Shown here piece by piece: positions 3,896 to 24,170 of a stretch of 64,000 nucleotides of DNA (positions within the stretch are counted from its first letter, which is position 1; each line of letters opens with the position of its first letter). This stretch comes from Auriscalpium vulgare (lineage: Eukaryota; Basidiomycota; Agaricomycetes; Russulales; Auriscalpiaceae): assembly GCA_019915015.1 (NCBI GenBank), contig JAHBBC010000025.1:434001-498000 (forward strand). Reading direction: 5' to 3'. The notes under the pieces are model-generated. The model searched no databases. It was given only the letters and a program-made list of their open reading frames with translations, and had not been told where the DNA came from. A program made the position numbers and the translations under genes.

Positions 3896-4790
3896 TTACT
3901 CTTCGTTCATCTGAGGGTTCAGCTCTCCAAGTTCAAACGCGTCCAGCGAAGCCAACCAGTCCGCGTCATAAGCCGTGACTGGCAGACCTCGCACGGCTTG
4001 CGAGGCGGTGACCATGGTCGACTGGGATGGGCCCTGGGCAGTGCGACCCTGCACCGCGCGGTCCATGTGGTTGAACTCTTCGGAGTGTCGCAACCATGCT
4101 GTAACCGTATGTTCCCTCCACGGTTTCGTGACGGCGTACTGAAAATTGCTGTCGGACTTGTCGCTGCTCTCCGCTGAAATGATGCGGTGGAGCATATCCT
4201 CGCGTGGCTTGACGTCCCAGAACGCAGCTGCAAGAAATTGAAGACGTCTTTGGTATATCTGAAGGACAGCGCTCAGTTCGGTAAGGCACTCCTGCACGAC
4301 ACAAGACGTACCAAGCGCTTACGGCCTTCACGGTTGGCGTCTCGTTGCTTCTCTGCAGGCCTCTTGTGCTCTCGCTGGAGACTCGACATGCGAGTCTTGA
4401 AGGCCATCTCCAACACCGTCAGGTCGCTGATTTCATGCGTCGCCTGCTTGGCAAAGTCCTGAGCAAAGACGCGCGCCGCAGATGTGTTCCAAGGAGAGTC
4501 GTTCGTCCCCGACATATCGATCTTGAAGTTCTCGACGGTGCAGCACGGCCGCCTAGCGCGGACGCCGACGTAGGCGTCAACCTCCTCGGAGGTCGCGACT
4601 CTGGTAGCGGGCGCCTGAGTGCCGTCTCGTTCCATCAGACTCAGCGCATGAGCCTCAACGAGACGCTGGGGTGCAAGTCAGGAACAGGTTCCACACATGA
4701 AAGCGATTGCCGACCTGTAACTCGTCCTTGGAGATATATCCATGCCCTATCCTGCCGCCCATCTGCACGTCATCATCAATGACAGGACTG
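3896..4790 (-). CDS. MSSDES-family basidiomycete hypothetical protein (3' part, possibly truncated at its 5' end)
   Basis: Function unknown. Exons read on the minus strand are 4665-4312 and 4258-3896, joined by a 53-nt intron (GTACGT donor, CTTCAG acceptor). A further exon ends at 4715 (...GYISKDELQ). The protein carries HALSLMERDG, then EVDAYVG...PCCTVENFKIDM, then WNTSAARVFAQDF, then EGRKRL at the splice, then YQRRLQFLAAAFWDVKPRED, then KPWREHTVTAWLRHSEEF and a tail AVRGLPVTAYDADWLASLD. Each block has a counterpart in the gene at 63.3-64.0 kb, and the intron falls at the same codon (after RKRL). Here the usual MSSDE stretch is altered to SAESSDKSD. The family identification rests on the match within this window and on memory of similar agaricomycete proteins. 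No N-terminal exon-repeat region is visible upstream of about 4800. Confidence 0.7.
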
Positions 4791-4799
4791 TTCTGAACC

Positions 4800-5540
4800 A
4801 ATTTGAGCTCGCAAAACAGTCACGAAGCGCGTGCGAGGACACATACATGTGCATCGGCCATGGAGCACACACGGTGGAGAGGCACTGTGGAGCGAGGGAT
4901 AAATGAATCACTGATAGGATGCAGCCTGATGACGGACAGACGGACAGTCAGGCCTAGCCTGAGGGAGGTTGATGCAATGAAGACTCACGACAGGCTTCCG
5001 CTGCGAAGAGATGTTCGTACATCGTGAACTCTGGCAGCTTTTGTAGACCGACTGAGCCCTTCAAGACCGAGACGACAGCAGTATAAAAGGCGCGGTCGTC
5101 GTTGCTTTGTGAGGTCGAGCAAAGACGCTTTTGAATTGCTTTGTTGGAGGACAATTGAAGGTGGGAGCCGCCTTCTGCTTTGTTAGGGCATGACCGTCCC
5201 CGACTTCCCACGGAGTACTTGTGGAAGGAGGGTAGTTTCCGTGGCTGACAGCTTGGCACCGAAGACAATCGTTCTAGTAGTAAGTTAGAAGGAGGGTTTT
5301 CTCGAATGATGGACTCTACAAGTTGTTCTGTCACCGTGGGATAAATAGGTTTGGTGGCTGTGGGCTGGCTGTGGGCGGCGTCGTCCGATTAAATTGAGTT
5401 TCTTACGCTCCCTTTCTCTCTTGAGTCTCCTCCATCATTACCTTGGCCGCGTGTGTCTCTTGCATCTCTGCAGTTTGTCCTAGGGTCATCGAAGTCTGCT
5501 TCCAGGAGACTATCCTTGACGCGGTTGGATATCATCTATC
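4800..5540. other. Intergenic stretch, no gene supported
   Basis: Open frames here are short, lack splice-consistent extensions and have no recognisable motif. I see no RNA gene or convincing regulatory structure. Confidence 0.4.
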
Positions 5541-5554
5541 GACTTCCTTCTCCT

Positions 5555-5890
5555 TAATTGTTTGCTCGTCTTCCCGTTGTCGTCCCCCGTTCGTCTATGT
5601 CTTGTCGCCGGCTCGTATCATGTATGCATCTCCCGCTGATCGCTGTCATTTTTGTTGCATACTCGTCGCCGTCTAGTTGCACGCTCGTCGTCGGCTCGAG
5701 TTGGCCTCTCGTCGTGTACTCGTCGCATTATCATCGTCGGCTCCTTACCGTCTCGTCGTGCGCTCGTCGATTTCTCATCCTGGGCTCGTCTCCCTCTCGT
5801 CGTCCTTTCGCCGCCCACTCGCCGCCCTCTCGTCTCCGACTCGTCACTGGTCCGTCGCCCTCTTGTCGCTGGCTCGTCGCCCAGTCCCAC
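5555..5890 (+). repeat. CTCGTCG-rich degenerate minisatellite
   Basis: The heptamer CTCGTCG and one-base variants (CTCGTCT, CTCGCCG, CTTGTCG) recur dozens of times at irregular spacing of 10-25 nt. All forward frames become Ser/Arg/Leu-rich as a result, which explains the overlapping open frames here. The repeats look like a decayed minisatellite rather than a gene. Confidence 0.65.
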
Positions 5891-5899
5891 TATCTGATC

Positions 5900-7300
5900 A
5901 GACTCTGCTGTACCATAACATCAATTAACCAGCCTATAACCGACGACTACAACTTGACATCCCTCCTTCCCCCAGTCTTCACCGAACACAGATTCACAAA
6001 ACACCCTGACAGATCTCCTCTTCTCCCCTCTTTTTTACGCTCTAACCAGCTAGAGTTTTTCTCGCATAACGTCTTCTGTGTTGACTCGGTCACTAACAAA
6101 ACAGATAGATCTCCAGAAAAGAAATTGTTCTCCAACTCCCGAATCTCGTCGCCTTTCTTCTACCTTGCACTATGCTCTACCCTCTACATGCACTCCCTCA
6201 TTATCTGACGACACGCTTGTATATATAATTTGCTTGACGGTTGTGCATTAAATCTGCCTGCACTCGGTATTTATCCTTGATAAACTGGATAATTATCACA
6301 ATGGTAATGCGAAGTCGGGGACCGGTACGCCCGCGCCGCTACGAGATATTGTAAAGCGGCGTTACTAAACGTTCAACGCTATATAGCATACTACCTTCAC
6401 GAATCGCTGTAGCTTCAAGGTGAAGGAGCACGCTTTCGCCAGCATCCGCATGATGCGTTCCTGACCTCTCGGCGTGGCACTGAGTGGCGCTGACAGTGAC
6501 ACGCTGCTCTGCTTTCTTCCGAGGGCGTCAACTGGTCAAGATTGAAGACAGCTACCACCACGGCCACAAGTCCTCGCTTCAAACAGTTCAAGATCGCACC
6601 GCGTGCTACGTTAGGCTGAGCACCTCGAGGCGCGAATGGATTTTGCAGGCAGCGCACTCCCGATGGCACCACCCAGTTCCAGCCCTGTTGAATGACACGG
6701 GTGCGTTGTACTTCTTCCTGCCATTGAATATTGACGCCCCACCCACCATGGACAAAAACACAAACTTCATTGGAACAAGCAAGGGGCCACTAGTCAGTAA
6801 CCATACAAGTCCTGTCTCGGCCCTGTGTACATAAAAATTCTGCGGCAATGTAGTACGCATGGTTGTTATCTATTGAGAATCCAGTTCCTATCGCTCTCCG
6901 TAATTAGCTACTCAACACAACTTACTCGATAGCCGTCCTTGATGTCACTGTTGTGATGATGTTCGCTGGGGTCGACCCACCCAGGCTGCATCGACGCATG
7001 CCTGACAAAGTGCCGAATTGTTCTGGAACAACCCTGTATACGATAGAGGAAGCAGCAAAAGGTGGCTGCGTCGGGAAATCGCAGGTGGAAAACGGGGCAC
7101 GGCAAGAAGTTTCCTGTGTTGCAGGACCAACGGAGCGTTCGTTCCGCCAGATACGGCTCGTACATGTGCTGCGCGGACAGGTCAGACAGGACAGCGTGGA
7201 AGTTTAAAAGAAACGAACCTTCGTGACTGGCATGTCGGGATGGAAACCACCGTTGTCGATGTATCCATCGTACACGTCCATGAAATCCGACTGATCAGAC
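5900..7300. other. Intergenic stretch, no gene supported
   Basis: This stretch is mixed AT-rich and GC-rich DNA with only short, mutually overlapping frames. A TATATATAA run near 6220 is the only promoter-like sequence I noticed, and nothing convincing follows it. Confidence 0.35.
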
Positions 7301-7408
7301 CCGATGGCCAGACTCCCTGCTCTGGGTCAGTACGGTGATCAATGGGCGAGGAGCGCGAGGACCCACAATCCTCCTCGGTTTCGGCCTGCCACTCTGACAA
7401 CCGAACCA

Positions 7409-8032
7409 TCAGAGCTTGCCAGTCCAGCAAGACTTGAGAGCGGTACCTCCCCGTGATGGAGAACTCGGCGCAACAAAAGATATGAGTGATCGTGGTGCCG
7501 AAGGGGTCGCAACTGCAGTCGGAACTGTACTCGTCATCGCTGTCTTCTGGGGGCCCATTACTGTCCTGAGTATCGGCGGGCGGAGGAGGCGCGTGGAGAG
7601 GGTCTCGGACTTGGACTTGGAGAGGGTCCTAGCCATCGACACGGTGAGACAGACTTCATATGCGAGAGCAGCATGCTGACCTTGTCCGTCATCGGCGCAC
7701 ACGCATCCATGACACCTGTGCTCTCGCACGCATCGAAGTACAAGTCATCAGAGGACGCATCGGAGGCGGCGTCGAAGAGGTCGGTAGAATCGGGACTGGC
7801 TGCTTGGATGTTGTCGGATGGCTGCGAAGTGGCGACTGTCACGACATGTCAATGGCAAAGGCGAGGATGGCGCACCTGGGCCATTGTGAGCTACCACGAA
7901 CTGACTGGCATCGTCGGGGCAAACCGTCATTTTATATGTGCCCATAACGAGTGCGCCTGCCTGTCGAAAGTCGAAGTTGTTTGCATTGTCTGCTGGAAGG
8001 AATAATTGAGTGCGAGTCACGCTTCGTCGCAT
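7409..8032 (-). CDS. Possible hypothetical gene, acidic Asp/Ser-rich, boundaries uncertain
   Basis: On the minus strand an open piece (FLPADNANNFDFRQAGALVM...SQFVVAHNGP) ends at a GTGCGC donor. A 43-nt candidate intron ending TGACAG then joins, in phase, to VATSQPSDNIQAASPD followed by an acidic run (DLFDAASDASSDDLYFD). The composition of the joined reading is more protein-like than its neighbours, but I recognise no domain. The intron is at the lower size limit for this genome, and the 5' and 3' ends are not fixed. It may be a decayed gene. Confidence 0.25.
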
Positions 8033-8049
8033 GCTATGTGCGTCGGCTA

Positions 8050-11000
8050 CACCGCCACTGTTGCTCTTTCCTCATCCGACGCTCGACCACCTCGCTCCTG
8101 CTTTATGGCTTGCGCCACCTGGAACAACTTCTTGCTTTATCATTTGCTTTTGCCTAGCCATGTCGGAGTCTCCTCTGTGCCGCTCGTGCCATGTGGGGTG
8201 CCTTTTCCTCGGAGGCTGGCACGCTTGCGACGTGCTCTTACTCAGCCCGGCATATCGAAGAGTCGTCGTCACCGTCGGCGGCGGCGACCCGGCCAGCCAA
8301 TCACAAATGCGGCCGATGGCGTTCTCGTCGGTACGTCTATCATTATCATTATCCATTGGACCTCGCGCTGACTTTCAATCGTGTTCTTTCATAGTCAAGA
8401 GTGTGCTCACCCCGAGTCCGGACTCCAGACCGCCGCGCGCTCAGTGGAGCTTGTTATTCGTAGGTCACATCTGTGCTTCTCCCTCATAAATATGTTCCGT
8501 CGTGCTAATCTCCGTTTCTACCTACTCGATAGATCTCGCCGGCGCGTCGCATGCTCGGTCAGCCGTGTCAAAGCCTCCCCGCTGAGCCGTGCAGCTATCT
8601 TTCGGTGAGACGTCTCCCCAAATTCCCAACGAGTCTAGAGCTAATAAATCAAATCGGCCAGATCTCGACGCCTTTCACGCACGGGCTCCCTTCGCGGTGT
8701 CTGCGAGCGCACAGCCGCTCTTCTGTTCGTCTTGGAGCGGTCCGCACATCGTTTGCGCCGTATATATGCGGGCTTCAAAATCAGTGCCCTGTTTAACAAA
8801 CCGCCACGCGACTGCGCCGGACCTTCACCCAGCCGGTTTCGCCCTCCGCAAGCACGTTGGCTGCTAGGCAACGGACGTCCGCAGAGGCAGGCCGATCTGG
8901 ATTGTATGCGAACGCCGCGATGGCGTCCTGGTCTGAGAGCGTTCAATTCCTGTGAGCTCGCACGCCTGGAATATCTGTCTCTCTCTTGCTGGGGCTGAAA
9001 TGATATGTAGAATGGCACCATCAGATCGTTCCAGTGTCCCGCGACTGCGTCGGATCGCGAGGCCACAAAAAAAGAAAAGTCAATGTAAGTGGCCGGGCGT
9101 GTCCCCACTATTCGCAACTGACTTGGCTGCCGCAGTCTATCGGGTAGCCGCTTCCAAGAGCTATGATCATTGTGCGTAGTACGTGCACCCTCTCTCCCAC
9201 TGCAGGCATACCAAACTGACATCATTGCTCAGCAGCCGGGAAAGCTGCGACCTTCGGGTCGTCCTCAACGTGCTTGCGTCACTCATCGGCATGATCCTCT
9301 CACAGAACACCGTCGCCAACTCGTCGTCCACCTAATGCAGTCGGACGAGACCCTCGGGCAGCAGGTCTTCACCGTGATTGCCAGCACGCCGCGCCCCGAC
9401 TGGTTCACCGTGCGCAAGGCCAACACCATCCAAGGGCTCGTCACGCATCGCACGCTGCGTACTCGCTGCAGCACCTTGCGGACGCCCCCACGCTCTCACG
9501 CATAGCTCACCGCCGAGCGCGTGCTGTTCTACATGGGCCGCGGGGCGTTCACCCTCGACACGCATGTGCACGCACCTCGAGACTGGGCGCCTCCGAGGGC
9601 CACCGGAACGCGCGCGGGCCGTGCCCGTCTTGTCTCTGCGGCTGCCATCTCATGCGCTGGACGAGCTTCCTGTGCGCGCGTGCGGATAGGCCGGACCGAC
9701 GCCGCGCTTGGTCCGAGCGGACGACTCTGTACGCAGCAGACTGGCTGGACGATGGTGCTGCGACGTTGCCCAGTCTCTCCACGTCGCCAAGTGTCAGGTC
9801 ATCTTCAATATCGCTGGGTACACAGGAAAGGACGCCTCGCAGGTTGTCCGTGCAGCCACCCGGCAATGCTCACGGCTCGAAAAACCTGGACGAGGCGGGA
9901 TTCAACATTGCACCGTCGCAGCATCGCTTTGCGACCGCCCTGCGCATAGGTATGCACATTGCCGACTTTTCTCTCGAATGTCTTTGACTTACATCCACGG
10001 CCTTCAGTTTTACCTGGACATGAAGACAATCATACCACTGCCAGGGCAGCCGATGCCGCGCCTGCTTCGACGCCAGCGCTCCACTTCAAGAGTGGCTGCT
10101 GCCTCCCTGGACGAGGCACCAAACATCCGCCCCGACTCCTCGATTCACCTGGACGACGCACGCCCGCGTGCACGCGCAGGACGAGCCTGCGCAGACGAGG
10201 CCCTCAACGCTTGCTACGGGGGCGCGTTCTGCTCACGCAGAGCGAGTGCGCAAGCAGGCCGGACACACGACGTGGCTGTGGATCACACGCATCGTGGGGG
10301 AGGCACATCAAGCTATACGAGGCGCTGCGATGCGGCAGCCGTCTCCGCACGTCGCCAAGATGCCGCAGGAGTCTCAGCCCTCGCTCGTGCTCGCACTGAC
10401 CGCGACGACGCACTCTTAGACGGGCCACACATGCACGAACACGCTGGGACGGCTCGTAGGCTGTGCCACCATGCGGTAAGTGACGGCGTGCAACGCTCGA
10501 GACCGAGGCGTGCAGCCACAGCGTGATTTCTGCACGTCGTCGCAGCCGTTGCTTCATTGTGCCAAGACATCACACTGGTACCTCAGGCTGCTCGAAGGGA
10601 CGGATGGATCATCTCGAGGCAGGAGCCGTGCGCGCGCACGACGTGCGTGTGCATTGCGGGACACAGCCGCCCGTCGCTTACGGCATCGCGCCACTCGGAC
10701 GTCACCCTCCACTCGTAAGAGGCGTGGATTCGCCGGTTGGAAGTCCGAGGTCACAGCGCACGGGACAAACTGACTCAAAAGCGTATCGCATCAAGGTCAA
10801 GGGAATCAGCTGTGAGCTCGACGAGAGCAATCTGACCGCAGCAAACGGCGCCGAAACGAATGAAGCAGAATCCTATTGTACACAAGTACATACGTGGTAA
10901 GCTGCTGCTGCTCTGCTTGTTCGCGGCGCTGAACTAAATGCACAGGTTGTGCGGCGCTAGACGTTCGCCATGGATACCCTCCGCACGCGATTTCTCAGCT

Positions 11001-11414
11001 GGAGGCGAGGTGCACAATTCACAGACGATGCCAGCCAGGTGAGAAGGATACGCTGTGAGCACATCTGGCACACTCTCTGACATCGTCTTCAGGCTTGCAG
11101 GTTCAATGAGGATGCGTGGACCTGACAGCATGGCAGATCTTGCGAGGACGAAGCTTTGTCAAAGCGTTCACCGAACCCTCCGGACATGATTCCCCAGCTG
11201 GAGACGAGGCGCACGATTGGCAGAGAAGGCTCGCAAGATGGCGCGCACCGCCAGGTCACGCTCACCAAAGCACGACCGACGGCCCGACTCTAAGGCCTTG
11301 CGGGCACGACACAAAGGCAAGACAAGGCGAATGCGAGCGCACCGAGGGTAAGCGGTTGTTTGTCCAAAGCACGGTGAGAGACTGACTTGGGTACATACAG
11401 GATATCCGGTCGGG
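8050..11414. other. Long intergenic stretch, no gene supported
   Basis: Many overlapping frames of 60-270 codons are open here on both strands, but this is expected at this GC content. None shows a recognisable motif, splice-consistent neighbours or a believable start. The region looks like decayed coding or transposon DNA. It ends at the left border of the element beginning at 11421. Confidence 0.4.
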
Positions 11415-11420
11415 CAAAGT
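11415..11420 (+). repeat. 6-bp target-site duplication, left copy (CAAAGT)
   Basis: The direct 6-bp repeat CAAAGT lies immediately outside the left terminal inverted repeat and is matched exactly at 21542-21547 outside the right one. Confidence 0.8.
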
Positions 11421-11453
11421 TATGGGCACTATACTGTAAAAGTATTCCAAAAT
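11421..11453 (+). repeat. Left terminal inverted repeat (33 bp)
   Basis: Reverse-complement partner of 21509-21541, with mismatches only at positions 6 and 7. The core shared block contains CTATACTGTAAAAGTATTCC. Confidence 0.85.
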
Positions 11454-11509
11454 TGCGTAGGTTGACTAGAAAGCATGTAATTTTCGCACATGTTGGTCAT
11501 TTTGCTGAA

Positions 11510-12055
11510 ACAAAACACACAGGTGGAGCAAAATTAAGATTTTCTACACATGTTGTCACCTCATTCTGCTCACAATGACACAACTATGTTTGAGTCATCT
11601 AGGAATTTACACAGGTCTTGCAAAAAGAGAATCTCCACAAGTGCTTGAAGTATCACAAAGATTACACAGGTTTTTTGGGTGAGTAAAACTGCACATGTCA
11701 AGTTTTTGCAGTAATGAAATCTACACAGGTCTCTGGCAGGTTAATTTACACAGGTTCCATAGGCACAAGGGATCTACGTAGGTTGAATCCTGTGGGCATA
11801 AACATAAATAATCTACACAACTAACAGAATCCGGAAAATGTACACAGGCTGCTTGGACATAGATCTATACACAGGCATTGGAACTGAAGAAATCTGCACA
11901 ACTTACAGAACCCAAAAAACATACTCAAGTGAGTTGAACATATATTCTCGCACAGATGGTAGATCTAAAAAAATCTGCACATCTGAAAAAATCTAGGAGG
12001 TAGAAATTTACACAGCTTATACAGCTTACAGAATTTAGCATATGTACACAGGTCA
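11510..12055 (+). repeat. Left subterminal repeat field (ACACAGGT words)
   Basis: About ten copies of TACACAGGT or close variants (ACACAGGC, CACAAGTG, ACATGTTG) are spaced 20-100 nt apart in AT-rich DNA just inside the left end. They all read on the plus strand. The reverse complement ACCTGTGT recurs near the right end. Subterminal repeats like this commonly bind transposase; that role here is inference. Confidence 0.7.
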
Positions 12056-12996
12056 GAGGGACTTCAGTTCTGTGGCAAACCAGTCAGGGTGATATGTGTA
12101 GTCCGCCTGCCCGGTTCTGTCTTCCCGTGTACCCGTGGGCTCACTCCAGGGCAGCTGGAGCCTGTAAACTGTGAGGGAATCCAGACAGCGCCAGACGGCT
12201 TCCACAAGCACAAGGTCCACATGCTGGTGTCTGTGTCTTTGTTGCCTCGCCCGCGGGTGATGAGATAACCCCCACTGCAGTTGCTGGGGGCCAAGGGGTA
12301 GGGACTGGGAGTACTCAGCTGCCTGGGGTGAGAAGCGTGAGAGCACAACTTGCTGGCAAAAAGACCCTAACCACAGTGCGCACACTATCCTATGGGCTCG
12401 CTGCCGTCCATACTCCTGTCTAGATACCATCAGTCACACCGAGAGCGTAGAGCACATACTGTCAGTCACGGTGATGGACACCCCAGGTAGTAGGGTGGTA
12501 AACAGTAGAATACGACCAAGTCCCTAGAGCGCTGCCGAGGTGGTGATATGTGTTGCAAGTGAGCATCAGGAGTCCCGAATGGACAACAACCATCTCCGAT
12601 CGAGCACAATGTGTTTGAGCCCGCCAGTAGACCAGTGGACATGGACATGGACACCACGAGACAAGCACAAGTGTGCGGCGCGCACCAGCGCCGGCCAGAG
12701 GACTAGCATAACGAGGGTCTCTCTCTCAATATAGTGGCCCAGCCAGCCTCATGAATGAGTATATGACACTTTGAAAAGGACTGCTTCCACGGTAACACAC
12801 CAAGCTATAGGTGTGCCTTTTATTTGGCTTTATTTGCATCCAAAATTGATCAACCTAAATAAGCCTGTGCCACACCTTGTCCACCAACCACCATCCACAT
12901 CATTGTGTACTTGCTGAAAATTACTTATCTTGAACCAACAGTGAGTCATTCTATTGATGTGTCTGACAACTGTTTGCTAATGCATAAAGACCTCAT

Positions 12997-14024
12997 ATGG
13001 AGAACCCTCATTCCTCAGCTGAAGACCAAACAGATGGTCTCCCAGACAACGGTCCCCCAGGTGTGCATACATTTCTCCAGGAGGCTGGCAGGATCGCTGT
13101 GGAAGCAAAGTTCATCATTCAGTCACTTCCAAATGCCGACACCCCTGCCGTCGAGCGAACTTTACGACACGGACGACGGCCTATTCCTCCAGTATGCAGC
13201 ACTCACAAAGAAAGAGCCCAAGACCGAGGTGTACATCACTTCGAAGCAGCTGTGGTCAATTGTCCGCTGGGATCTTGTTCCTGAAGGGTGCGTGTCTCTC
13301 TCCTGGTCACTACACTACAGTGCTCACACCGCCCACGCGGCATGGCGCATGGCGCGCTCACTCAGGACACCCCTCAAACCTCTCACGGGCCGTGATCGAG
13401 ACGAGAAGATGTTTTCGCACATTGTAATGAATACCAAGGATGTCGCAATCGGCCCCCTGGAGTATTGTGGAAATGGGATCACTGTCAAGCTTTTGGATGG
13501 TCAATCACGCAGGTGTGTAAGCAAGCACTGGAAATGTCGATTCACATACTTACGGTTTGTACGCTAGCATTCTGGCGTGTCCGGGCGATCCAAATCCTGC
13601 CGTGCCGGCATTCTACAATGACCGCAGCATACGCAGCACTGAACGCCGGTCTCTGTCGTTGGCCGGCAAGCGCAAGGGCAGCGTCTCGAAACAGGTGAAA
13701 ACCCGCCAGCTCAAGAAGGTTGCAGCCTCTGAGCAGGTGCGAAACAGCCTGCGCCTGAGCGTTGCCACCAGCTCGGATGACGGTGGCCCTAACCGCCATT
13801 CTCCCCTCATGTCATCGCCGGAAGAAGGACGATCCAGCAACGCAGAGGACAGCGTCGTCGTCCCTTCACCACCTGTTGTTAGGAAGCGTAAGAGTGCGGA
13901 TGCTGCTGTCACGATACAGGGCAGCGTGCGCATAGCATCCCCCATCAAGCGCATCCGCATAGAACGGGGTATCCCTATGGACAGAAGGCACCACCCCAAT
14001 GATACAGACTTACTATACATGTAA
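12997..14024 (+). CDS. Hypothetical protein, cargo gene A of the TIR element
   Basis: Function not recognised. The likely start reads MENPHSSAEDQTDGLPDNG. A coding block from about 13128 (MPTPLPSSELYDTDDGLF, then KTEVYITSKQLWSIVRWD) leads to a GTGCGT donor near 13287 and, after a candidate 78-nt intron, to TPLKPLTGRDRDEKMFSH. A second intron at about 13512-13566 (GTGTGT donor, GCTAG acceptor) joins in phase to ILACPGDPNPAVPAFYND. The C-terminal ~150 residues are basic and Ser/Pro-rich with nuclear-localisation-like clusters (LAGKRKGS, VVRKRKS, SPIKRIRIERG) before TAA, suggesting a nuclear protein. The junction between the first 66 nt and the main block is unresolved, because no intron of normal size keeps phase there. 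It lies between the element's TIRs and is divergent from the other cargo gene. Confidence 0.5.
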
Positions 14025-15039
14025 TCAAATGATGCGCAATTTATCGGATTTATATCTACTTGTTGACTCGGGGCAGACGACAACGGCGCAGAGTAGGGAG
14101 CGTCGGCCGCGGACCGGAGGACGCCAAGCGCCACGTGCTTCTTCCCTACCAGCTCGCGCTCACTGATCGGATCCCAGTCAGCTACAATCTACACGAACGC
14201 CTTGTCTTTCTCTCCCGCAAACCACACTAGGTCGCTTCGCTCGATGGCGCGCCGCTCGATTTCAAAGGCATCCGGCCACGCGAGATTGAGAATGCCGCCC
14301 CGCCTACCGTGCGTTTTTGGGATTGTTCTCGCCATCCCGGTTCGAGGGACTCATGGAGCACGCCGAGGACGACGAACTGGGCGCACGTGGCGGCCGGCCG
14401 TCTCGTCCTGGACTCCTTCAGCCGTGTTGCTGCCAGTGCTCAGACATCCCCGGCCCATACCCGGCTTTTGTGCAGGACGGAAAATGTGCTGGAGGATGTT
14501 CAAGGCGCGATACCTGTGATGCGAGCGGTCAAGGTGAGCGACACCGTCGCGCCTTGGGTTGTCTGAGCTGATGGCGCCTGTCTACCAGGCAAATTCCACG
14601 GCACGCACCCATGACATCTCTACCACGCCGCTCGCCCACTCGCCCAAACCCTCCAGTTCGCAGCGCGCCGTGCAGGCTGGTCAGGCAGCCGCTCGATGAC
14701 GCCGCGCCGCAGAACCATGTACAAGCACACAACCCGTGATCCCGCAGCCTCGCTGGTGATAACTCAGGCTCAGCGCTGCAGGCGAGGAATCCAGCGGGAG
14801 AAGGTGTGTGCACCCTTCGCACTGACGCTCTCGTGCGCATGCTGACATGTCTCGGGCTTGCAGGACGACGTGCAGGCAGCGGGGGCGACACGGGTGCATG
14901 CAATTGAAGGGCTGCGTCCCATATATCTCCTGCGCTGATGTTTTGCTTTGGAATCAGCGATTGCACGACGCCAACGGCCCGCCACAGAGACGGCGCTCCA
15001 CACCAAATGTGGCGCGTAGGACTGTCTGCAGTCCAAGTG

Positions 15040-15760
15040 CTAATGTACGTGCGCGAGCAGTCCCGCATCTCTTCTGTGCTGATGTTTTGCTATGGAAGAA
15101 GAATGGCGCGCGAAGCCAACAGCCGTTCCCCGTTCCCCGTTCGACTGCCTGTCATGCGCGATGGCTACAGAGTCGGCGCGCTCCCAAACACGGACGTCGC
15201 GCCAACACAGACGAGCGCGGCCGCGTCGAGCAGCGTGGTGTAGCCGAGGGTGGCCGCGTGGCGAGCAGCGCAAGGGGCGGCTTGGTGTTGGTGAGGTTTG
15301 AGAGGCCTGTGTAGGCGAAGAGCGCGGCGGTGCCTGGTGCGGGGCGGTATTCTTGTAGGAGCGCCTGGGGAGTGTGTTAGCCGGGACTGCACAAGGCGGG
15401 ACACGAACGCACCTTAGCCTCGTGCACCCACACGCCACCGCGACGTCCCGCGGGCTACCGGGCATATACGCGACCGCCGCGCCCTTTGCGCGCGCAAACT
15501 CGCGGACCCGTGCACGGAGTTGTGCGCGTCCTCGGGGAGCACGAGCGCGCCGCCCGGTGTGAAGGGGAACGCCTCGCTGACGAGCTTGAGCGCGGTGCTC
15601 GCGGTGCTTGCGTTCGCGGTGAACACGACCGCGGAGCCCTCTGGCGCGTTGAAGAACGCGAGCACCGCTGCGGCTGCGCGCGGCGTCCGCGAGCGCCGCC
15701 GAGAGCTTCGAGCTGCCAGTGCGCGGGCATCAGATTTGGGATGGTTTGAAGGCAGAGCAG
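15040..15760 (-). pseudogene. Aminotransferase class V / Mo-cofactor sulfurase-like fragment, frameshifted
   Basis: The minus strand reads VLAFFNAPEGSAVVFTANAS, then ALKLVSEAFPF, then LPEDAHNSVHG. This is the beginning of fungal PLP-dependent class V aminotransferases related to molybdenum cofactor sulfurase. Farther downstream are AALFAYTGLSNLTN and, in another frame, HAATLGYTTLLDAAAL, which match the next part of the same fold in the right order. The frame changes at least twice. The lysine-bearing cofactor region is not found, so this is a broken N-terminal half. It lies inside the 10.1-kb TIR element and looks like captured host sequence. Capture is inference; an old insertion of the element into such a gene is excluded by the intact target duplication outside. 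Confidence 0.6.
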
Positions 15761-15784
15761 ATCATTATGGGATAGTAGAAATAG

Positions 15785-16185
15785 ATTGCAGACCATTCTG
15801 AGGCTTAGCCGTAGATGCCCTGGTCGGCATGAATTTGACTTTGACTAGGTGGTGCGGCGGCGGTCGGTGGCACGTGATGCACCCGGGCTGCCCTACCCTT
15901 GGCACCGGGAAACATACCTGCAGCTTTTCGGATGATTTCAACATTCATTGTGAAGTTTTTTTGTACTAGAAAGATAGTGGGGACCATCCGAATGCTTAGC
16001 CGTAGATGCCCCGGTCTGCATAAAATGCGACTGAGTGATGTCACGTGACCCACCCCTGGCGCGTCGCGTGCAACATGGACTGGAAACCACTTTGAGGATA
16101 TTATTTGGAGGCATCATTGTAGCTTTCCATAATGTCTCAATCTGGGAATAACTAGCTGAGCTTCAGCTGTAGATGCCCCAGCTGC
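15785..16185 (+). repeat. Diverged ~180-bp tandem repeat, three starts
   Basis: The words CTTAGCCGTAGATGCC (about 15806), CTTAGCCGTAGATGCC (about 15994) and CTTCAGCTGTAGATGCC (about 16158) mark three repeat starts, the first two followed by GG-rich and CACGTGAY words. Spacing is about 188 and 164 nt. No coding potential is seen. Confidence 0.5.
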
Positions 16186-16589
16186 TACTACTGCTACTGC
16201 GACTGCTAAGTACTTCGCAACTTGTCGTTGGGCACCGCTCCATCCCACACCCTCTATGGGGAATCCAATAATTCTGTAAGAGCTTGACTGATGGTGGTAT
16301 GGAGTTTCTGGGTGTGTTCAGACTGTGCGTGCTTATCAGGATGGTAAAACTGGTATTTGCGCGATATATAAGCTCACAAACTTGCTGGGAGTGGGCCGAC
16401 ACGTAGCGCGGCGGTACGATTCCGCTCCAATGTCTCACTTCTGGGTTTCTGGTTACATAATCAAAAATATACATGAAAAAACAGTACGGAGCGACACTAC
16501 AACACAACTGGTGGCCCTGGGAATAGCCCGGGATACTGAACGATGGTTAGCACTGGAGGGCATTATATTGCGTGTGCAGTTGCAGCCTG

Positions 16590-16940
16590 AGGTGGTTGCT
16601 GTGAGAGTGATGACATCATTCCGGGTTCTAAATGTAATTTTAAACCCCGGAGTGATGTCATCATATTTCCGCCTGTGTTGTCCTGCGCTGCTTATTTCCT
16701 GCAATATCACTGTTTGTCAACTCATGTATTTGTTTCATGGTCTAATAAATGGTGTATCTGGGCAATCATTAGTTTACATTGTGTGGAGCAAAAGGGAGGA
16801 GGGGTAAAGTCGTCAGTCAACAAAGCGTGGGAGTGAAGTTCCAAAAAAGGCGACTGAGATAGTCGTTGCATGGGTCAAAAAAATGCTGTATGTAGATTAC
16901 ATAAGAAACGATTCGAAGGAATCGTAATCTGCATGGATTG
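16590..16940 (-). mobile_element. Hairpin-ended dispersed repeat, copy A
   Basis: Read on the minus strand this matches 42815-43155. It starts with the palindrome ACGATTCCTTCGAATCGT and continues with CATTTTTTTGACCCATGCAACGA and a GTCGCCTTTTTTGGAA block. It ends in a 54-nt imperfect palindrome at 16609-16662 (GATGACATCAYTCCGGG...). No protein is encoded. It sits at the 3' edge of cargo gene B, so the last codons of that gene as read (after about 16955) come from this repeat. MITE-like or Helitron-like nature is not settled. Confidence 0.65.
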
Positions 16941-19900
16941 AATAATAGAATACCTTGAGCAGCAAGCGGGCGGCTTTGCTCGGATTCATTGCGTTCAGAT
17001 ACTCCTTGGATGGGGCATTCTGAACCGGAAACTTGTCGAAAACCATGTTGATGATGCTCGTCAAATTCTGCCCTCGGAGACCGGCTGCTAGCTCTAGCTG
17101 CTTGGCTTGACGCTGAAGCTGCAGTCGTCGCAATACGCGGTCAGGGGATGTCTCTCCAGCAGAAGCTGCTTTCTCTGCCCCTCCTGCGTATGGCCGAGGC
17201 TCACGCTCCGGTATCGGATTGAGCGGCGGTGCACTGTCGTCTTCAGATTGCCCTTGCGACTTTGTGCCCTCATGTTGAGCTTGCGCATCATTCTGCACAT
17301 TGTCGTCTGAGGGTATATGCGCTTGTCTGTTCCAAAAGGACACAAATATGTAGAATGAGACTCCGATATACATCTTTCAGAAACTAATTATGTCGCCTAC
17401 TGTGCACGCCGCGTTCCGCTTCGTGTTGACCGCTTTCCCTCTGTCCCATCCGTATCCGATGCTTGTAAATTTGACTCAGGCTGGTCCTAATCCGAGAGGC
17501 ATGTTGTGAGCATAAGCGATGCAGCGGAATATGAGTGGCTGCCTCACCGAGCTTCGTGTTTGCTTTCTTGACGGTTCATATTGAGGAGCCGCTGCCTTTT
17601 TCTTGCCCTGCGACTATAATAACAGACACAGATTAATCAACGTGCATGCGCGCAAATCTGAGTATGCAAACACGCACCTTTTTGTGGCTCACGAGCTTCT
17701 GCCCGACGGCGTGGAAGAACTCCTCGAAGATCTTGAAGTACTCCGCATAATGCGGATGATCAATAGGAAAGTTATCCAGGAATGGATGGACGATGACGTC
17801 GATCAAACCATCAAGACCGTACTTGCCGCAATTCATAACACCGTACCGCATACTGGCGTGCGCTGACACGTGGCCATAGTCCACTGCAAGGGCATCCGTG
17901 AGAACAGATGGGTCCTCTTGTTTGAGAACCAGGTTTCGGACGGTGAGATTTTCCCAGTCTTCTTCATCGGCGTCCTGGGTTGTTACAGTCAGAACAGTGC
18001 TGATGCAGGGGAACATGAGGATACAAACAGGAAATGTTGGGTTTTCTCTGTTTCGGTCAAGGAGGACACCCACAGCGCGAAGCTTTGGGGGATCGTACAT
18101 GTGTCGAGGGAATGCAGACAGGAAGTCATCCAGAAGCCGCTGCGCTGTCTCCGATGTGTGGACAAGAATTCTCAGGCGAGCATTGTATGTCCCCTGCATG
18201 ATCCCCGGGTGTGTCGCAGGAAGAAGGTTGTAAATACTATCCAAGCCATCGACAACGGTCTGAAGTCCATATGGGCCGAGCCGTAGACCGATATTGAGCT
18301 GGTCGCGGCATTCCCAGCTTGATGGGTTGCCAGTTGCATTGGCCGGTTCAATGAGTTGCACGAGCTCATTAAGAAAAGACAATGAGTCCAGGAATGGTTC
18401 GACGCAGGCAGACCACACAACGTCTGGCGTGAGGACAGCTGCGTTCTTCAACCGGCGTTCTTCAAAAGTCTGTAAAGACATGAGATGGAGGGCGACAGCT
18501 CCAAACGCCTCTGTGGTAGTCTCGCGCGAGACTGCCCACTTGTGTGCGTCAACGATTCAACAATCAGCTATCAATAAGGTGGCGGATTAAATGTGAGTTA
18601 CATACCCAGGTCTGCTGCGACCCCGACGGCGGATGCACCGTGTGGAGTGCACGACGGAGTGCAATATGACACGCTGGCACAGGCAGAGGGTGAGGTGCCT
18701 CGTCGGACGCGGGCTGATGTGTAGTTGATCCCGAAGCTGGCGCAGCGCCGGATGTGTCATAAGTGGCGAACTCAGGCTCGTCTGCGTCCGGGTCGTCGAG
18801 CATCTCGTCGTGCTCAGCAAAGTCAAAGTCATAGTCCTGTTATATATCAGACCCGGATGAGAGAGCGTAGCCATAGATGGTGCGGAGAGATGGCTCACCG
18901 TAGGCGCAGGACCTGACGCTGCATCACTGCCAGTACGCTTAGACGGTGGTGGGGGAGAATCATGAGTAGTATATGCTTCAGACTAGAAATATCCATCATC
19001 AGACACAGGCTCTTTACGCATGAACAGAGAAGCTGACTGTGGCCCGCTGCGCTTTAGTTTTTTCACTTGGCACATCCTGGGATTCAGACTCGCTGATATT
19101 GATTATGGAGACGGTGTCGGTGTTGCTGTCGTGGTCACTGCTGCTGTCCGCCTGGTCGCTGCTGCTGTCTTCCTGCTGATGTTTTCGACGGTTGCGATGA
19201 CGATGAGCGCCACTGGGAAGGGGAAGAGGAATGTTGGCTGATCCTTTGACCAAAGCCAAGTACACGGTGATCTTAAATCCGGCACCGGCTGGAACGCCGC
19301 GCAGCTTGGGCAGTGCAGCACTGCAAGGATTTTCAGCTTCACTATTTCCGGAGATAAGAAGGTGAGTGCATACCGCAAGAATGTATCAGAATCGATAGGA
19401 TCGGCAGAATTCTGTGGATCCTCAGGAAACAGAATTGTTTTACTGCCTTGAACAGCGTTTGATCGAAGGAGTGTCCACGGACGAGCACTGTTCGGGTCTG
19501 CGATGGAATTGATGCGCGCTGCTGCGTATTGAGTTGTCGACCTAAATGCGTTGTCGACCAAGTCGCAGATTGTGCCGCTGGTTGCATCTTCCGGGACATG
19601 AACAGTCTTTACCAATTTGATTGAATCCATTATTGCCTGTCTGCACGTATAATTGTTCACGCCTCGGACAAGAAGGATAGGAGACACGACGTACTTGCTG
19701 GCGTCCGGTTGAACATAAGTTCCTCGGTGAACCTTGGCTGTGTCCTCTACCAGAATGACCGCGACTTTGGTTGTCTTAAGCGGCTTCGATGGCTTTGGAG
19801 CGGTGGTCGTGCCCCCAGTCTTGCTCTTGCTGCTTTTGCTTGCAGGCCTGGAATCTTCTGTTCGCTTGCGCTTGCGCTGCGAGGATGACTCCTCTGAGGT

Positions 19901-20406
19901 CTGCTGCGACTTGACCACCGATCAGAGCATGTCATCAGTAGAGTGGGGAGGGTAGTCCGCACCTTCCCTGCCGGGTAAAATGCATGCGCACCAGCCGGAG
20001 ATGATCCGCTTGATAGGCGGTCTGTCCGGGTTTTGCTCTGTTCTGAAAATGACTTGGCCTTGGATGACACTAATTTGAAGAATGTGTTAGTGATGATGTG
20101 CGCTTGTGCGAGTAATAGGGAGGGAGACGCACTACTAGTATGACCACGAGATCCCGATATCTTCTCCTGCGTCTGTCGAGGAATTCCACCATTCTATGAA
20201 CGGTGCGTTGTTAGCGCAGTGACAGTGTGGAAGTATGGCAAAGCGCGCGACGAATCGCGATGAACCTCGGTCCAGGATGTGGAAGCTCTGCCTGCACTAG
20301 AAGCTGGAGTCGACTTGGTCTTGTACGGCCCCTCGGGTGGCAGCGTGGAACCTGGCGACGGACTGGGATTTCCCCGTGCGCTGGGCGTGCTTGTGCCAGC
20401 GTGAGG
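16897..20406 (-). CDS. Hypothetical multi-exon protein, cargo gene B of the TIR element
   Basis: Function not recognised. By phase-matched splicing I read exons (high to low) ending at 20266, then 20193-20133, 20069-19963, 19909-19374, 19320-19026, 18982-18899, 18836-18606, 18538-17678, 17613-17548, 17486-17401 and 17326 to about 16897. The N-terminal third is Ser/Thr/Lys-rich with basic clusters (QRKRKRTED), then an ordered part (TKVAVILVEDTAKVHRGTYV), then an acidic stretch (DYDFDFAEHDEMLDDPDADE). The 287-codon exon 18538-17678 is the main folded block (LTPDVVWSACVEPFLD, SSWECRDQLNIGLRLGPYG, PFLDNFPIDHPHYAEYF). The C-terminus ends NPSKAARLLLK before the hairpin repeat supplies the last codons. 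The 5' end is not fixed and may lie up to about 20530. The GTTCAT donor at 19025 is weak, so the gene could instead be two genes. It could be a transposase of unknown type, but I see no catalytic motif. Confidence 0.5.
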
Positions 20407-21079
20407 CGCCGTGTGACGATGCCAGACGGCGGGATGTTGACAATATGCACATAAAACACTCGGGAGTCAGCTGGGATCGTCGGCTGCAGCGGGATCAATG
20501 GGGAAGAATTGAGGGCATGAAGATTCACTGCATGAGGGCTGATTGCAGCGGCCGAGCTCCTCAACAGACAACGTCCAGAGAGGCGACATGATTGGTTAAA
20601 GGGGTATTGTTCACTGGCAGGTTGGGAAAAGGGGCTGGCAGGCTGGACGATGCACAGGAGCAGCGCGAAGTTTTTTGCGCAGGGCAGTCGGGACGCACTG
20701 ATAAGCAATCTTGTTTGTTGCAGCCAAACAAAGCCGCGATATCCTCCAGCTCCAAGTCGACCTACCCACTGAAGCACGCCAGGAACCAGCACACCAGCCA
20801 GCGAGAGTGTCCGCAACAGGAAACCCTATCTATCCGCCGATGTTTCACCCCTATGTATGCGGGACAGAGAGTGCGGTGAGCAACGAGCAGGTTAGACATT
20901 GCATAAATGTAATGGGACTTATCTAGAAGTAAAGTGCTGGGCTGAGCAGCCGCCCCCTCTGAGAAGCGTGCTTGGTATCATGCGGGGCAGCCTTCCGAAG
21001 AAGCGAAAGAAGCGAAAGAAGCGAGCTGCATGATTAGGCTTTAGAGCTGGGCCCAAACTCTCGGTGCGCGGCGCGCGCA

Positions 21080-21400
21080 AGCAACCTGTGCTTATCTAAT
21101 CTGGCGCATCGATAAACCTGTGTCATTTCAATTGACTTCTGACATTGTACCTTCCTGTTGATTTTCTCCCTGCTCGCCTACAAATGTGTACGTTTCTTGC
21201 ACTTCACACTTACACCAATTTTGGCGCATGCACACCTGTGTCGATTCATCAATTCTTCCTGTATAAGAAGTAGTGTGAAAATCAGTAGTCCTCGCCCTCG
21301 TGCGCTGTCAATTCTCCCACATAAACAACCTACGCTGATTTTGAGAGTGCACCAAAACCTGTGTATAATCTTCAGCTGTGTCGATTTCTCCGCATATGTG
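21080..21400 (-). repeat. Right subterminal repeat field (ACCTGTGT words)
   Basis: AACCTGTGCTT, AAACCTGTGTC, CACACCTGTGTCG and AAACCTGTGTATA occur within 300 nt of the right terminal repeat. They are reverse complements of the ACACAGGT words at the left end, so both fields point inward. Confidence 0.65.
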
Positions 21401-21508
21401 ACATGTGCACATATTGCTTGCAAGATAGCACTTAGGTATATTACAAAATATTTTAGCCATCCGGTGTCAATTTCTATGAATTTCGCGAGATGTGTAAGTT
21501 TGGACCAT

Positions 21509-21541
21509 ATTTTGGAATACTTTTACAGTATAGTTGCCATA
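21509..21541 (-). repeat. Right terminal inverted repeat (33 bp)
   Basis: Inverted partner of 11421-11453; see that entry. The outer end is GCCATA on the plus strand. Confidence 0.85.
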
Positions 21542-21547
21542 CAAAGT
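21542..21547 (+). repeat. 6-bp target-site duplication, right copy (CAAAGT)
   Basis: Exact match to 11415-11420 at the other border of the element. Confidence 0.8.
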
Positions 21548-21559
21548 CTCGACGCAAGC

Positions 21560-24170
21560 CCGCTCCGTTCTCCGCACACGATTCCGCGCCGCCCAGTTGC
21601 TCAATTCACGCACAAGCGGCATGCCAAACACCCGGAAGACACGCACCACGACGATGCACATACCGCCACGCCAGTGGGGTCGTGACACGGTCAAGGGCAT
21701 GGGCCTGCTCTGTTGCAGAATAATGTGGGCGCGCAAAGCAGCCCTGAACCTATCAGAATTGCCTCGTCTGATGTCCGCATGGATGGGGCGCACAGTGAGC
21801 ACGGCGGCGTTGCCGCAACCCGATGTCCTTCATGACTTGTAGCACGTGCCATTGAACTGACCTGGTCTGTTGGAGATTCGCATGCGCACGTTGGTGTCGA
21901 CGGTATCGGAGGTGCCCAGCATTTCATGGCGAAGCTCATGGACAAGATGATCACTGGTCGGTGAACATCGGGTTGCGAGAACGACGTCGACGACATGCCT
22001 TTCCATAGCATTTTGTACATACATCTGCAATAACACACGCTCTCTTGCTGCACAAATACGTCCAACAACGTGACTGAGCATGCCGAGCGATGGCTGACAC
22101 ACAAGCAGGACATTTACATGACCAGATCAGTGTTCTGTGTGCTTTGACTGCAGCCTATGATATCTAGTACGAGTTGCCAACCATTCAGACGAGGCTACAA
22201 AGCTCTTATCACCCGTATGTATGTTTATGGACAAAATTTTATTCTCAACTACAGGGCATACATGGCGAGCACAACTATTACACCAACCTCCCAACTACAC
22301 GATCAACCGGACCTTATAGCAAAATGAGCACGCACCAAGGGAGGCATGGCAGCACAGTCGGTGCAGCATCCTGGACGGACAGACTGAGTCTCAAGGATGC
22401 AGGTCATAAATAAACAACATACCAGAGACCCAGATAGCGCGGCATCGTCGCCGTACAGTCGCAGGACGTCGCTGTACAGTCACAGGACGTCACGCTATAC
22501 GAGCTCACTGCCCAGCACAGCGATGTACCAAGGCAAGTCCGGATGCATGAGAGTGCGAGGCAAGTCATCCGCCTTCTGGTGAAAGAAAGAAACAAAGTGA
22601 GCAAAGTGAGCATGAGGGATGCAGAACATGAACAGAACGTACAGGGACACAACAGCACTGCCCGGAAAGACAGCCCGGAAAGACAGCCCGGACGGTGTGA
22701 GGATGCGGAAGGCGAGCATCCGCAACCCTGGATAGCGGCATGCAGAGTGGGGGAGGTAGGAGAATGGCACGGCCAACCGTGCGCCGAGTTGACTCCGCTA
22801 TTCAAAAACAAATGAGACCAGAGTGAGGATCAGAGATGGTCAACGTACCAGGACCCGTCAGGCAGCTGCCTGGACAGCCTTGACTAAGAAGCAGGAGGAA
22901 TGCATAACAGAGGCGGGTGGAGAACATATCGCCGTTGAAAATGAACAGTCACGTGACTTCGTTTGACTGCCAGCAAAGCACCCTTGGGCGACATAGGAGA
23001 AGGTGGGCATGTCATAGGGCTAGAAGACCTAGTGTGGATGATACAAGGTGACCATAAGGGAACAACATAGTCAGCTATCTGAGAGGCTGAAGCGGTAGCA
23101 AGCAGAAAACTCACCTGTTGATCAAATTTTGTGCGATGTGTTTATGTGGGAGACAGTGGGTAAGAACCGGTGGATGAGACCATCAATATTTGTCTGACCA
23201 TGCCAGGAGGCTACGTATACACGCAAGCCCCATTATTCCTGGCGGGTTTACGACAGAGGGAAGAGGTAAGACGGAAGGAGCAAGTGCCAGCAAACTTCAA
23301 AGCTGACCACGGCGCGTGAGAAAGTGGCCAACTCCGTGGGAACTTAAGCCGTCAATTTCCACCGTCAATTGGGAACTTAAGCCGTCAATTTCCACCGTCA
23401 ATTCCCGCCGTCGATTTCTGCGCCGGATGTCACACCCTCCGCAGCGCCAGCTGCCAACCTGGGTGTGTGAATCGTCGCGTGCGCGTCAAGATCTGATTTC
23501 CCTCCCATCCTTCGGACGACGTCTTTGAGAGGTCGATACGCGGCGGCCTGTGGTCGCTGTGATATGTGTATCATAATTTTGAAATACATTCAATTATTGC
23601 TGTGCTTTTTGTGCCGTATAAGGATTACTATCTGGTAGAAAATGGGAAATACACGAGAGCCACAAGCAGCAGGCAAGAGAGTTACTGAGGACACGGGCGG
23701 GGGCATACTCCGGCTCCGGATAGCACGCAGAAGCCCGCTCTGGATGTGGCTCGGGACTCAAGCTCAGGATGGATTCAGGGCCCCAGCTCCACCGACAGTG
23801 ACTGAAAATGGAAGCACATATCTACATGTGCACCCAAAGGGGGGCAAGACATCACAAATCAGACGCACCGGGAACCGGCTACCGCAAATTCACGCACGCA
23901 GCTGTGGCCCAAGGACTGACGATATGCAGACAGCCATGCCGAGAAACCGATACCGGGTCAGACGCCATCTCCCATTCATCTAGCCAGCACACGAATTGCT
24001 ACAAGTACATTAAAAGTCGTCAGGAAACGTCATGCAGTAAATGGCGTTACGAAGAGCCAGTATGTTCGCAAGCGACTGCCTTCCAAACGAAGATTTGAAT
24101 TCTAACGAGCGTTCCCAGGCAGCAAGTGCTGTTAAGTCTTGTCAGGAGCCGACCGTGAAATGGGTCTGAT
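21560..24170. other. Intergenic stretch with one possible minus-strand exon and short tandem duplications
   Basis: A minus-strand piece around 21870-22102 reads SHVVGRICAARERVLLQMYV...VHELRHEMLGTSDTVD and ends near a GTCAGT donor. It looks protein-like but has no recognisable family and no secure partner exon. Two copies of a 33-nt unit (GGGAACTTAAGCCGTC...) lie at about 23338-23403, and three copies of CCCGGAAAGACAG-like sequence at about 22660-22690. Nothing else is supported. Confidence 0.35.

Follow-up and report, generated by a model that had tools for sequence, protein, structure and literature searches.

A non-autonomous IS3EU-like transposon of Auriscalpium vulgare and the predicted Fpg/Nei-like gene family found on its sister element

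Introduction

A transposon with clear ends and no evident transposase raises the question of which superfamily it belongs to and what moves it. The window analysed here, a stretch of 64,000 nucleotides of Auriscalpium vulgare (contig JAHBBC010000025.1, positions 434,001 to 498,000), poses this question at 11415-21547, where a sequence-only reading had described a complete element with two spliced genes and unrecognised cargo, possibly a new superfamily, a known one with a divergent transposase or a large non-autonomous passenger element. We name this copy A25 and compare it with its sister elements, which are of type A (A27 and A8) or type B (B8 and B27). A25 is a genuine, complete transposon with sharp borders. 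It is very probably a non-autonomous, stripped-down IS3EU element, with a remnant of an Fpg/Nei-like gene and a three-gene ancestry resembling type B, that can most likely be mobilised in trans.

Borders of the element and its copies in the genome

The window was scanned for TA-starting ends that are flanked by a 6-bp duplication and whose terminal inverted repeats (TIRs) match at 14 or more of 20 positions. Two pairs were obtained, A25 at 18/20 and one unrelated, weak pair at 14/20. The TIRs of A25 are 33 nt each and lie at 11421-11453 (plus strand, beginning TATGG) and 21509-21541 (minus strand, ending CCATA). As the sequence-only reading had claimed, they are complementary at 31 of 33 positions (94%). 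A uniform-base model predicts about 1e-7 such pairs for 64 kb, and the border scan yields this same pair, so the inverted match is not due to chance. The exact CAAAGT duplication is indeed present, at 11415-11420 and 21542-21547, with 10,121 bp between its two copies. The proposed mirror-image subterminal fields were also recovered: ACACAGG occurs eight times in the left 750 bp (11421-12170, plus strand) and three times, facing the opposite way, in the right 550 bp (20992-21541, minus strand), compared with means of 0.14 and 0.10 in shuffled sequence. Neither field has a single ACACAGG on its other strand.

The earlier reading had proposed a check for further copies and an empty site, and both were found in a search of the organism's own genome, an assembly of 51.6 Mb in 96 contigs. 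The joined flanks of A25 align with contig C1 at 3523846-3524042 along all 193 query bases, with 96% identity. This empty site reads GGGCAAAGTCTCG and has a single CAAAGT, as predicted. Homology at 92% extends about 1.6 kb further in either direction, through the whole of the 3.2-kb locus examined.

A search with the terminus pattern gave five forward and five reverse matches (none with the pattern written backwards, as a control), and these ten are the two ends of five elements, so that four complete pairs with duplications of their own were added to A25. The core TATACTGTAAAAGTATTCC is identical at 10/10 ends. A27 (C27:330188-362060) measures 18.9 kb without its nested element, and A8 (C8:1261725-1292109), which is interrupted, measures 17.4 kb by itself. 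B8 (C8:1261739-1274715) inserted into the left TIR of A8, and B27 (C27:348831-361807) is located inside A27; each is 12,977 bp long, and the two are 99.985% identical. The target duplication is 6 bp in four of the five copies (CAAAGT, CAATTC, TGAAAC and CCCTCA) and 7 bp in B8 (ACTATAC). ACACAGG is found four times at the left end of type B and once at its right end. The left end is conserved among A25, A27 and A8 over about 840 bp (93-98% identity), and the right end over 455-620 bp (84-89%). Two blocks of about 0.7 kb (94-95%) are additionally common to A27 and A8, and A25 has short blocks in common with A8; the interiors are mostly different.

The surroundings of A25 are themselves repetitive. 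The element is inserted into a dispersed repeat that spans 3.3 kb or more (window 9761-11420 and 21542-23214), which is 92% identical to the C1 locus at 3.52 Mb and is in part also present at C4:193.5-197.2 kb (88-93%). The C4 copy is interrupted by a 751-nt inverted repeat (L056:1771-2521 and 2751-3501) with arms 94% complementary and 229 nt apart.

A transposase stub in A25 and an open transposase in type B

The plus-strand cargo of A25 had been read as one spliced gene, and comparison with type B resolves it into two broken ones. The first is a 5' stub at 12997-13165, comprising roughly 55 codons from exon 1 of an rva_4 DDE transposase gene, with the start read by eye; in tblastx, positions 13048-13158 align with the first exon of the type B transposase at 76% over 37 amino acids. 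The 3' half of a second gene, gene 2, follows at 13166-14024. Its match to type B begins at 13181 and consists of five tblastx blocks, the main ones at 49%, 68% and 60% and two more at 40% and 63%. The flanking blocks in A25 and B, together with the reading frames, place the deletion junction at 13158-13181, where the stub runs into gene 2 in a different frame and A25 is about 4.6 kb shorter than B. Neither the catalytic N-terminus nor the H2TH portion is left in gene 2 of A25; the homologue P0002 matches what remains at 13373-13507 (53%) and 13554-13793 (36%; E 8e-17). In type B, gene 2 is open across exons 2-7 (404 amino acids) and exon 1, and its tail, as judged by eye, is broken.

The type B transposase has three exons with GT-AG introns, encodes 523 amino acids and is open in both copies. 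Its catalytic triad is D250, D307 and E342 (DD34E). Pieces of it match PF24764 above the cut-off (E 3e-34 and 4e-27) and rve (E 5e-6) and HTH_23 (E 3e-5) below theirs, and no zinc-binding integrase N-domain is listed for these pieces at E <= 0.1. KDZ, hAT, MULE and Plavaka transposase domains gave no match among the window pieces scanned, which covered some of the frames. Of the options in the earlier reading, the large non-autonomous passenger element is the right one: A25 has only a transposase stub, and the open transposase is that of its sister.

The ends, the duplication length and the type B transposase all agree with the published description of IS3EU, and we regard this assignment, as part of the explanation of A25 as a whole, as very likely. 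Excerpts of Kojima 2025 (PMC12730594) describe rust-fungus IS3EU elements whose duplications are 6 bp, whose TIRs exceed 30 bp and whose termini follow TAYGG..CCRTA, and excerpts of the 2023 IS481EU paper (PMC10045372) give TA..TA ends and a duplication of usually 6 bp. A25 has TATGG..CCATA ends and 33-nt TIRs, and type B has an integrase-like DDE transposase with no upstream HHCC, of which A25 keeps the stub. The alternative that A25 founds a new superfamily, with one of the window's cargo proteins as transposase, could appeal to the absence of a clear Pfam domain in the cargo pieces scanned. It is extremely improbable and was rejected, since sister B, which has the core TIR and the subterminal motif in common with A25 and carries homologous cargo, supplies an open rva_4 DDE transposase, the plus-strand cargo of A25 begins with a piece of a transposase of this type, and the remaining cargo is Fpg/Nei-like and J-domain-like.

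Gene 2 belongs to a family with a predicted Fpg/Nei-like fold

The homologues of gene 2 form a so far nameless mushroom family (65 hits, with many divergent copies in several species) that is predicted to have the fold and catalytic N-terminus of MutM/NEIL glycosylases. Homologue P0003, from Artomyces pyxidatus, is predicted to have the overall fold of Fpg/Nei across residues 2-454, an N-terminal beta-sandwich followed by an H2TH domain; the C-terminal part of the model is at lower confidence and the comparison hardly extends to the tail. Among the matches listed in a fold search, the 50 VIA-align rows are all DNA glycosylases, and other folds may match as well. An earlier candidate, a Plavaka-like fragment, was rejected after this search.

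In Fpg/Nei enzymes, the N-terminal Met-Pro-Glu supplies the catalytic residues Pro2 and Glu3, and the H2TH motif is G(V/I)GN with an Asn. In an alignment of 47 rows (18 of the 65 hits, namely P0004, P0018, P0036 and the 15 weakest, were omitted), Pro2 is found in 40 and Glu3 in 38, with four rows gapped at each position, and gene 2 of type B likewise begins MPEYRE. The family's H2TH motif reads GIGVY, with the two Gly in 47/47 and 45/47 rows, compared with GVGN in E. coli MutM and GLGN in Nei.

Several results count against our reading of gene 2. The Asn position of the H2TH motif is Val in 42 of 47 rows, and gene 2 is therefore called Fpg/Nei-like, not Fpg. No row gave a match to Fpg/Nei at a curated cut-off, the best being TIGR00577 fpg (E 0.036) and Pfam H2TH (E 0.12), each in one of 47 rows, and unrelated models score as well or better (rpoC1 0.019, DUF6505 0.044); at this level the purely sequence-based signal is noise. 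Comparison with MutM by hhalign gives probabilities of 10% and 6%, and the low-probability profile alignments with MutM/Nei cover the H2TH part only. Among the approximately 15 places where PF24764 was matched in the genome (26 exon-level matches), gene 2 was found nearby, at the search sensitivity used, only at B8, B27 and one place on C1, where it is about 10 kb from the transposase and no TIR pair was found. A wide scan with MutM added little, as its matches, of which 80 were kept, are close relatives from enterobacteria. The best PDB sequence match to the gene-2 profile (0.93) is unrelated. As to a zinc finger, or a zincless finger with its Arg, the majority consensus contains no CxxC pair, and the C-terminal part of the model is at lower confidence.

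The Val substitution and the missing family-level matches speak for another reading, in which the product of gene 2 has the Fpg/Nei fold, is enzymatically inactive and serves transposition by binding DNA, comparable to the Myb/SANT accessory protein of another transposon group described in excerpts on Nuwa. We consider this somewhat unlikely, as Pro2 and Glu3 are largely kept, with catalytic roles in the known enzymes, and a plain binder need not retain an N-terminal proline. Gene 2 would, by inference, encode an active glycosylase.

Gene 3 may encode a J-domain-like protein

The minus strand of A25 carries gene 3, which spans 20589 to 16254 and has at least 13 exons. Exons 1-12 of the model lie at 16954-20589, the last intron at 16350-16953 (about 600 bp, compared with 67 bp in B) and the last exon at 16254-16349. 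The introns lie at GT-AG sites matching those of type B; 11 were checked in A25 and B by script and the twelfth by eye in the window, and exon 9 probably contains one more short intron. An in-frame stop occurs early in exon 1 (20467-20469), where B and the homologue P0001 are open. In type B, gene 3 is frameshifted and contains a later stop; a candidate stop within exon 9 of B was rejected, since the P0001 model puts it at an intron end. The description of two spliced genes thus holds for the intron structure of the minus-strand gene. Neither gene in the window is whole, because the plus-strand gene is an out-of-frame fusion and gene 3 has the early stop.

P0001, also from Auriscalpium vulgare, is 58% identical to the window over 79% of the query and 98.5-100% identical to gene 3 of type B in exon-bounded alignments. 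A second, denser search for homologues returned only P0001, which has no PDB sequence match. Gene 3 of A25 and B is 69% identical at the DNA level. In both, the last exon contains YHPDKHAQSEHTQKL, with the HPD motif, and reads like helices II-III of a J-domain; Pfam DnaJ is matched at E 0.003 (the last exon of A25) and 0.0009, below the curated cut-off. These matches suggest that gene 3 encodes a J-domain-like protein of otherwise unrecognised fold. The cargo that had been called unrecognised is thereby mostly accounted for, as a transposase stub and an Fpg/Nei-like 3' half on the plus strand and a J-domain-like gene on the minus strand. An alpha-kinase was considered for the opposite-strand gene and rejected, as the two gene-3 open reading frames (ORFs) and the homologue scanned gave no match, apart from one weak, unrelated one (SidD_cat, E 0.07).

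The last intron of gene 3 contains sequence repeated elsewhere, including in A27, and a hairpin at 16608-16663 with 25-bp arms that are 88% complementary. Hairpin and repeat are probably a small nested element.

Both accessory genes have been under purifying selection

Between A25 and B, dN/dS is 0.32 (0.26-0.40) for eight stretches of gene 3 and 0.13 (0.09-0.34) for two stretches of gene 2, the latter comprising only 90 codons with synonymous sites near saturation. The short exons 2, 3, 7, 10, 11 and 13 were left out, exons 1 and 9 were used in part, and one exon was cut to its in-frame part. These low values indicate that purifying selection acted on genes 2 and 3 during much of the period after the A25 and B lines split.

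The same values bear on the idea that gene 2 is a host repair gene caught by chance, with no role in the transposon. Genes 2 and 3 are broken in the copies seen, as this would allow. We regard it as very unlikely, given the low dN/dS and the many divergent copies in several species, which a mobile gene would show; Favolaschia claudopus, for example, accounts for 9 of the 65 hits. No PF01149 gene was found at the cut-off in this genome, apart from one weak, stop-bearing match, by a search that was positive in 8 of 14 control genomes and that an intron-split gene could escape.

Proposed history and mobilisation

The ancestor of A25 most likely had three genes as in B: a transposase, the Fpg/Nei-like gene in the same orientation and the J-domain-ending gene opposite to them. 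An internal deletion would then have removed most of the transposase and of gene 2. Recombination or gene capture between elements, which would have placed B-like interior parts in an A shell, would explain why the type A copies resemble one another at their ends and mostly differ inside, and why gene 3 differs between A25 and B by so much. It is unlikely, as stub, gene 2 and gene 3 retain the order and orientation of B, as a single deletion predicts, and A27 also retains a transposase scrap near one end.

After such a deletion, A25 would most likely move by cut-and-paste through the DD34E integrase-like transposase of B, acting in trans and making the 6-bp duplications. Type B is a natural source because the ends of the A copies keep the core TIR and ACACAGG in common with it. 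Some observations weigh against this reading. Mobilisation by B rests on resemblance because no A copy has an intact transposase (genome-wide PF24764 matches reveal none in A25, A27 or A8), and the right end of B has only its single ACACAGG. The IS3EU placement itself follows from agreement with a published description. Neither accessory gene was needed whole for the last jumps of B, because its gene 3 has a frameshift and a stop and its gene 2 a broken tail.

The product of gene 2 would act by base excision on the element's DNA, either to erase oxidised methylcytosines, with a transposon-borne TET/JBP enzyme as the first step, or to clear other damaged bases. The family may in this way help the element escape silencing. 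Excerpts of PMC5566547 report that NEIL1 excises 5-carboxylcytosine, and excerpts of PMC8889193 state that no excision activity had been discovered in fungi, with a thymine DNA glycosylase gene predicted in one. A fuller proposal, that mushroom IS3EU elements carry an Fpg/Nei-type anti-silencing enzyme which removes the 5-formyl- and 5-carboxylcytosine made by TET/JBP, as the excision step of fungal active demethylation, is put forward tentatively and is rather unlikely to be correct in full.

Other features of the sister elements and transposase loci

Within A27, positions 4289-5002 and 13962-14750 (C27 at about 334.5-335.2 and 344.1-344.9 kb) contain a 238-amino-acid ORF resembling TET/JBP and a KDZ transposase fragment (PF18758, E 4e-40). 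The ORF, which we take to be TET-like, has weak Pfam support (2OG-FeII_Oxy_3, E 0.048, only). The two are probably another transposon nested in the IS3EU shell, and both enzyme types, TET-like and glycosylase-like, may therefore ride on elements of this genome. In A8, positions 5865-10035 hold two long ORFs that read by eye as Copia gag and pol, a nested retrotransposon.

No TIR-bounded elements were found around the C1 and C4 transposases, nor in 12 further transposase loci searched within 1.5-kb flanks. Downstream of two other rva_4 transposases, on C1 and C4, are long ORFs of 572 and 543 amino acids (L055:5187-6902 and L056:5176-6804) with a common AVHxGIRT-like motif seen by eye, possibly another IS3EU accessory family; the C4 ORF has no Pfam match. 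A 2,309-amino-acid ORF near a further rva_4 transposase (L062:1072-7998, C10:1.04-1.05 Mb) reads by eye like a Helitron replicase-helicase.

Comparison with known systems

A25 itself is an unremarkable, well-proven example of a non-autonomous IS3EU element, backed by an empty site and by sister copies of recent origin. The surprise for a specialist is the sister's cargo, a member of a predicted glycosylase-fold family riding on a DNA transposon.

Among known systems, IS3EU/GingerRoot (Repbase; excerpts of PMC12730594) resembles the A25/B family in its TAYGG..CCRTA termini, in TIRs longer than 30 bp, in 6-bp duplications and in having an integrase-like DDE transposase and a further gene in opposite orientation; A25 differs in lacking the transposase. 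In the TET-carrying IS3EU families of those excerpts, the accessory genes encode TET/JBP and an alpha-kinase, the latter opposite to the transposase; here they are Fpg/Nei-like and J-domain-like. Fungal transposons with TET/JBP genes (KDZ, IS3EU, Plavaka and Helitron, among others) likewise combine a DNA transposon with a DNA-modification-type enzyme, possibly directed against silencing, but the enzyme predicted here is a base-excision glycosylase and not an oxidase, and the TET-like ORF lies in A27, not in the window. The gene-2 family resembles MutM, Nei and NEIL1 in its predicted fold, Pro2-Glu3, a GxG..Y..E.LF.AG H2TH motif and a VY.K/R stretch, and differs from them in lacking a match at curated cut-offs, in Val for the H2TH Asn, in being about twice as long and in having no recognised zinc finger. 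Nuwa and Harbinger, as excerpted, also pair a transposase with an accessory protein in one element, although with another transposase superfamily, 3-bp duplications and a Myb/SANT accessory protein.

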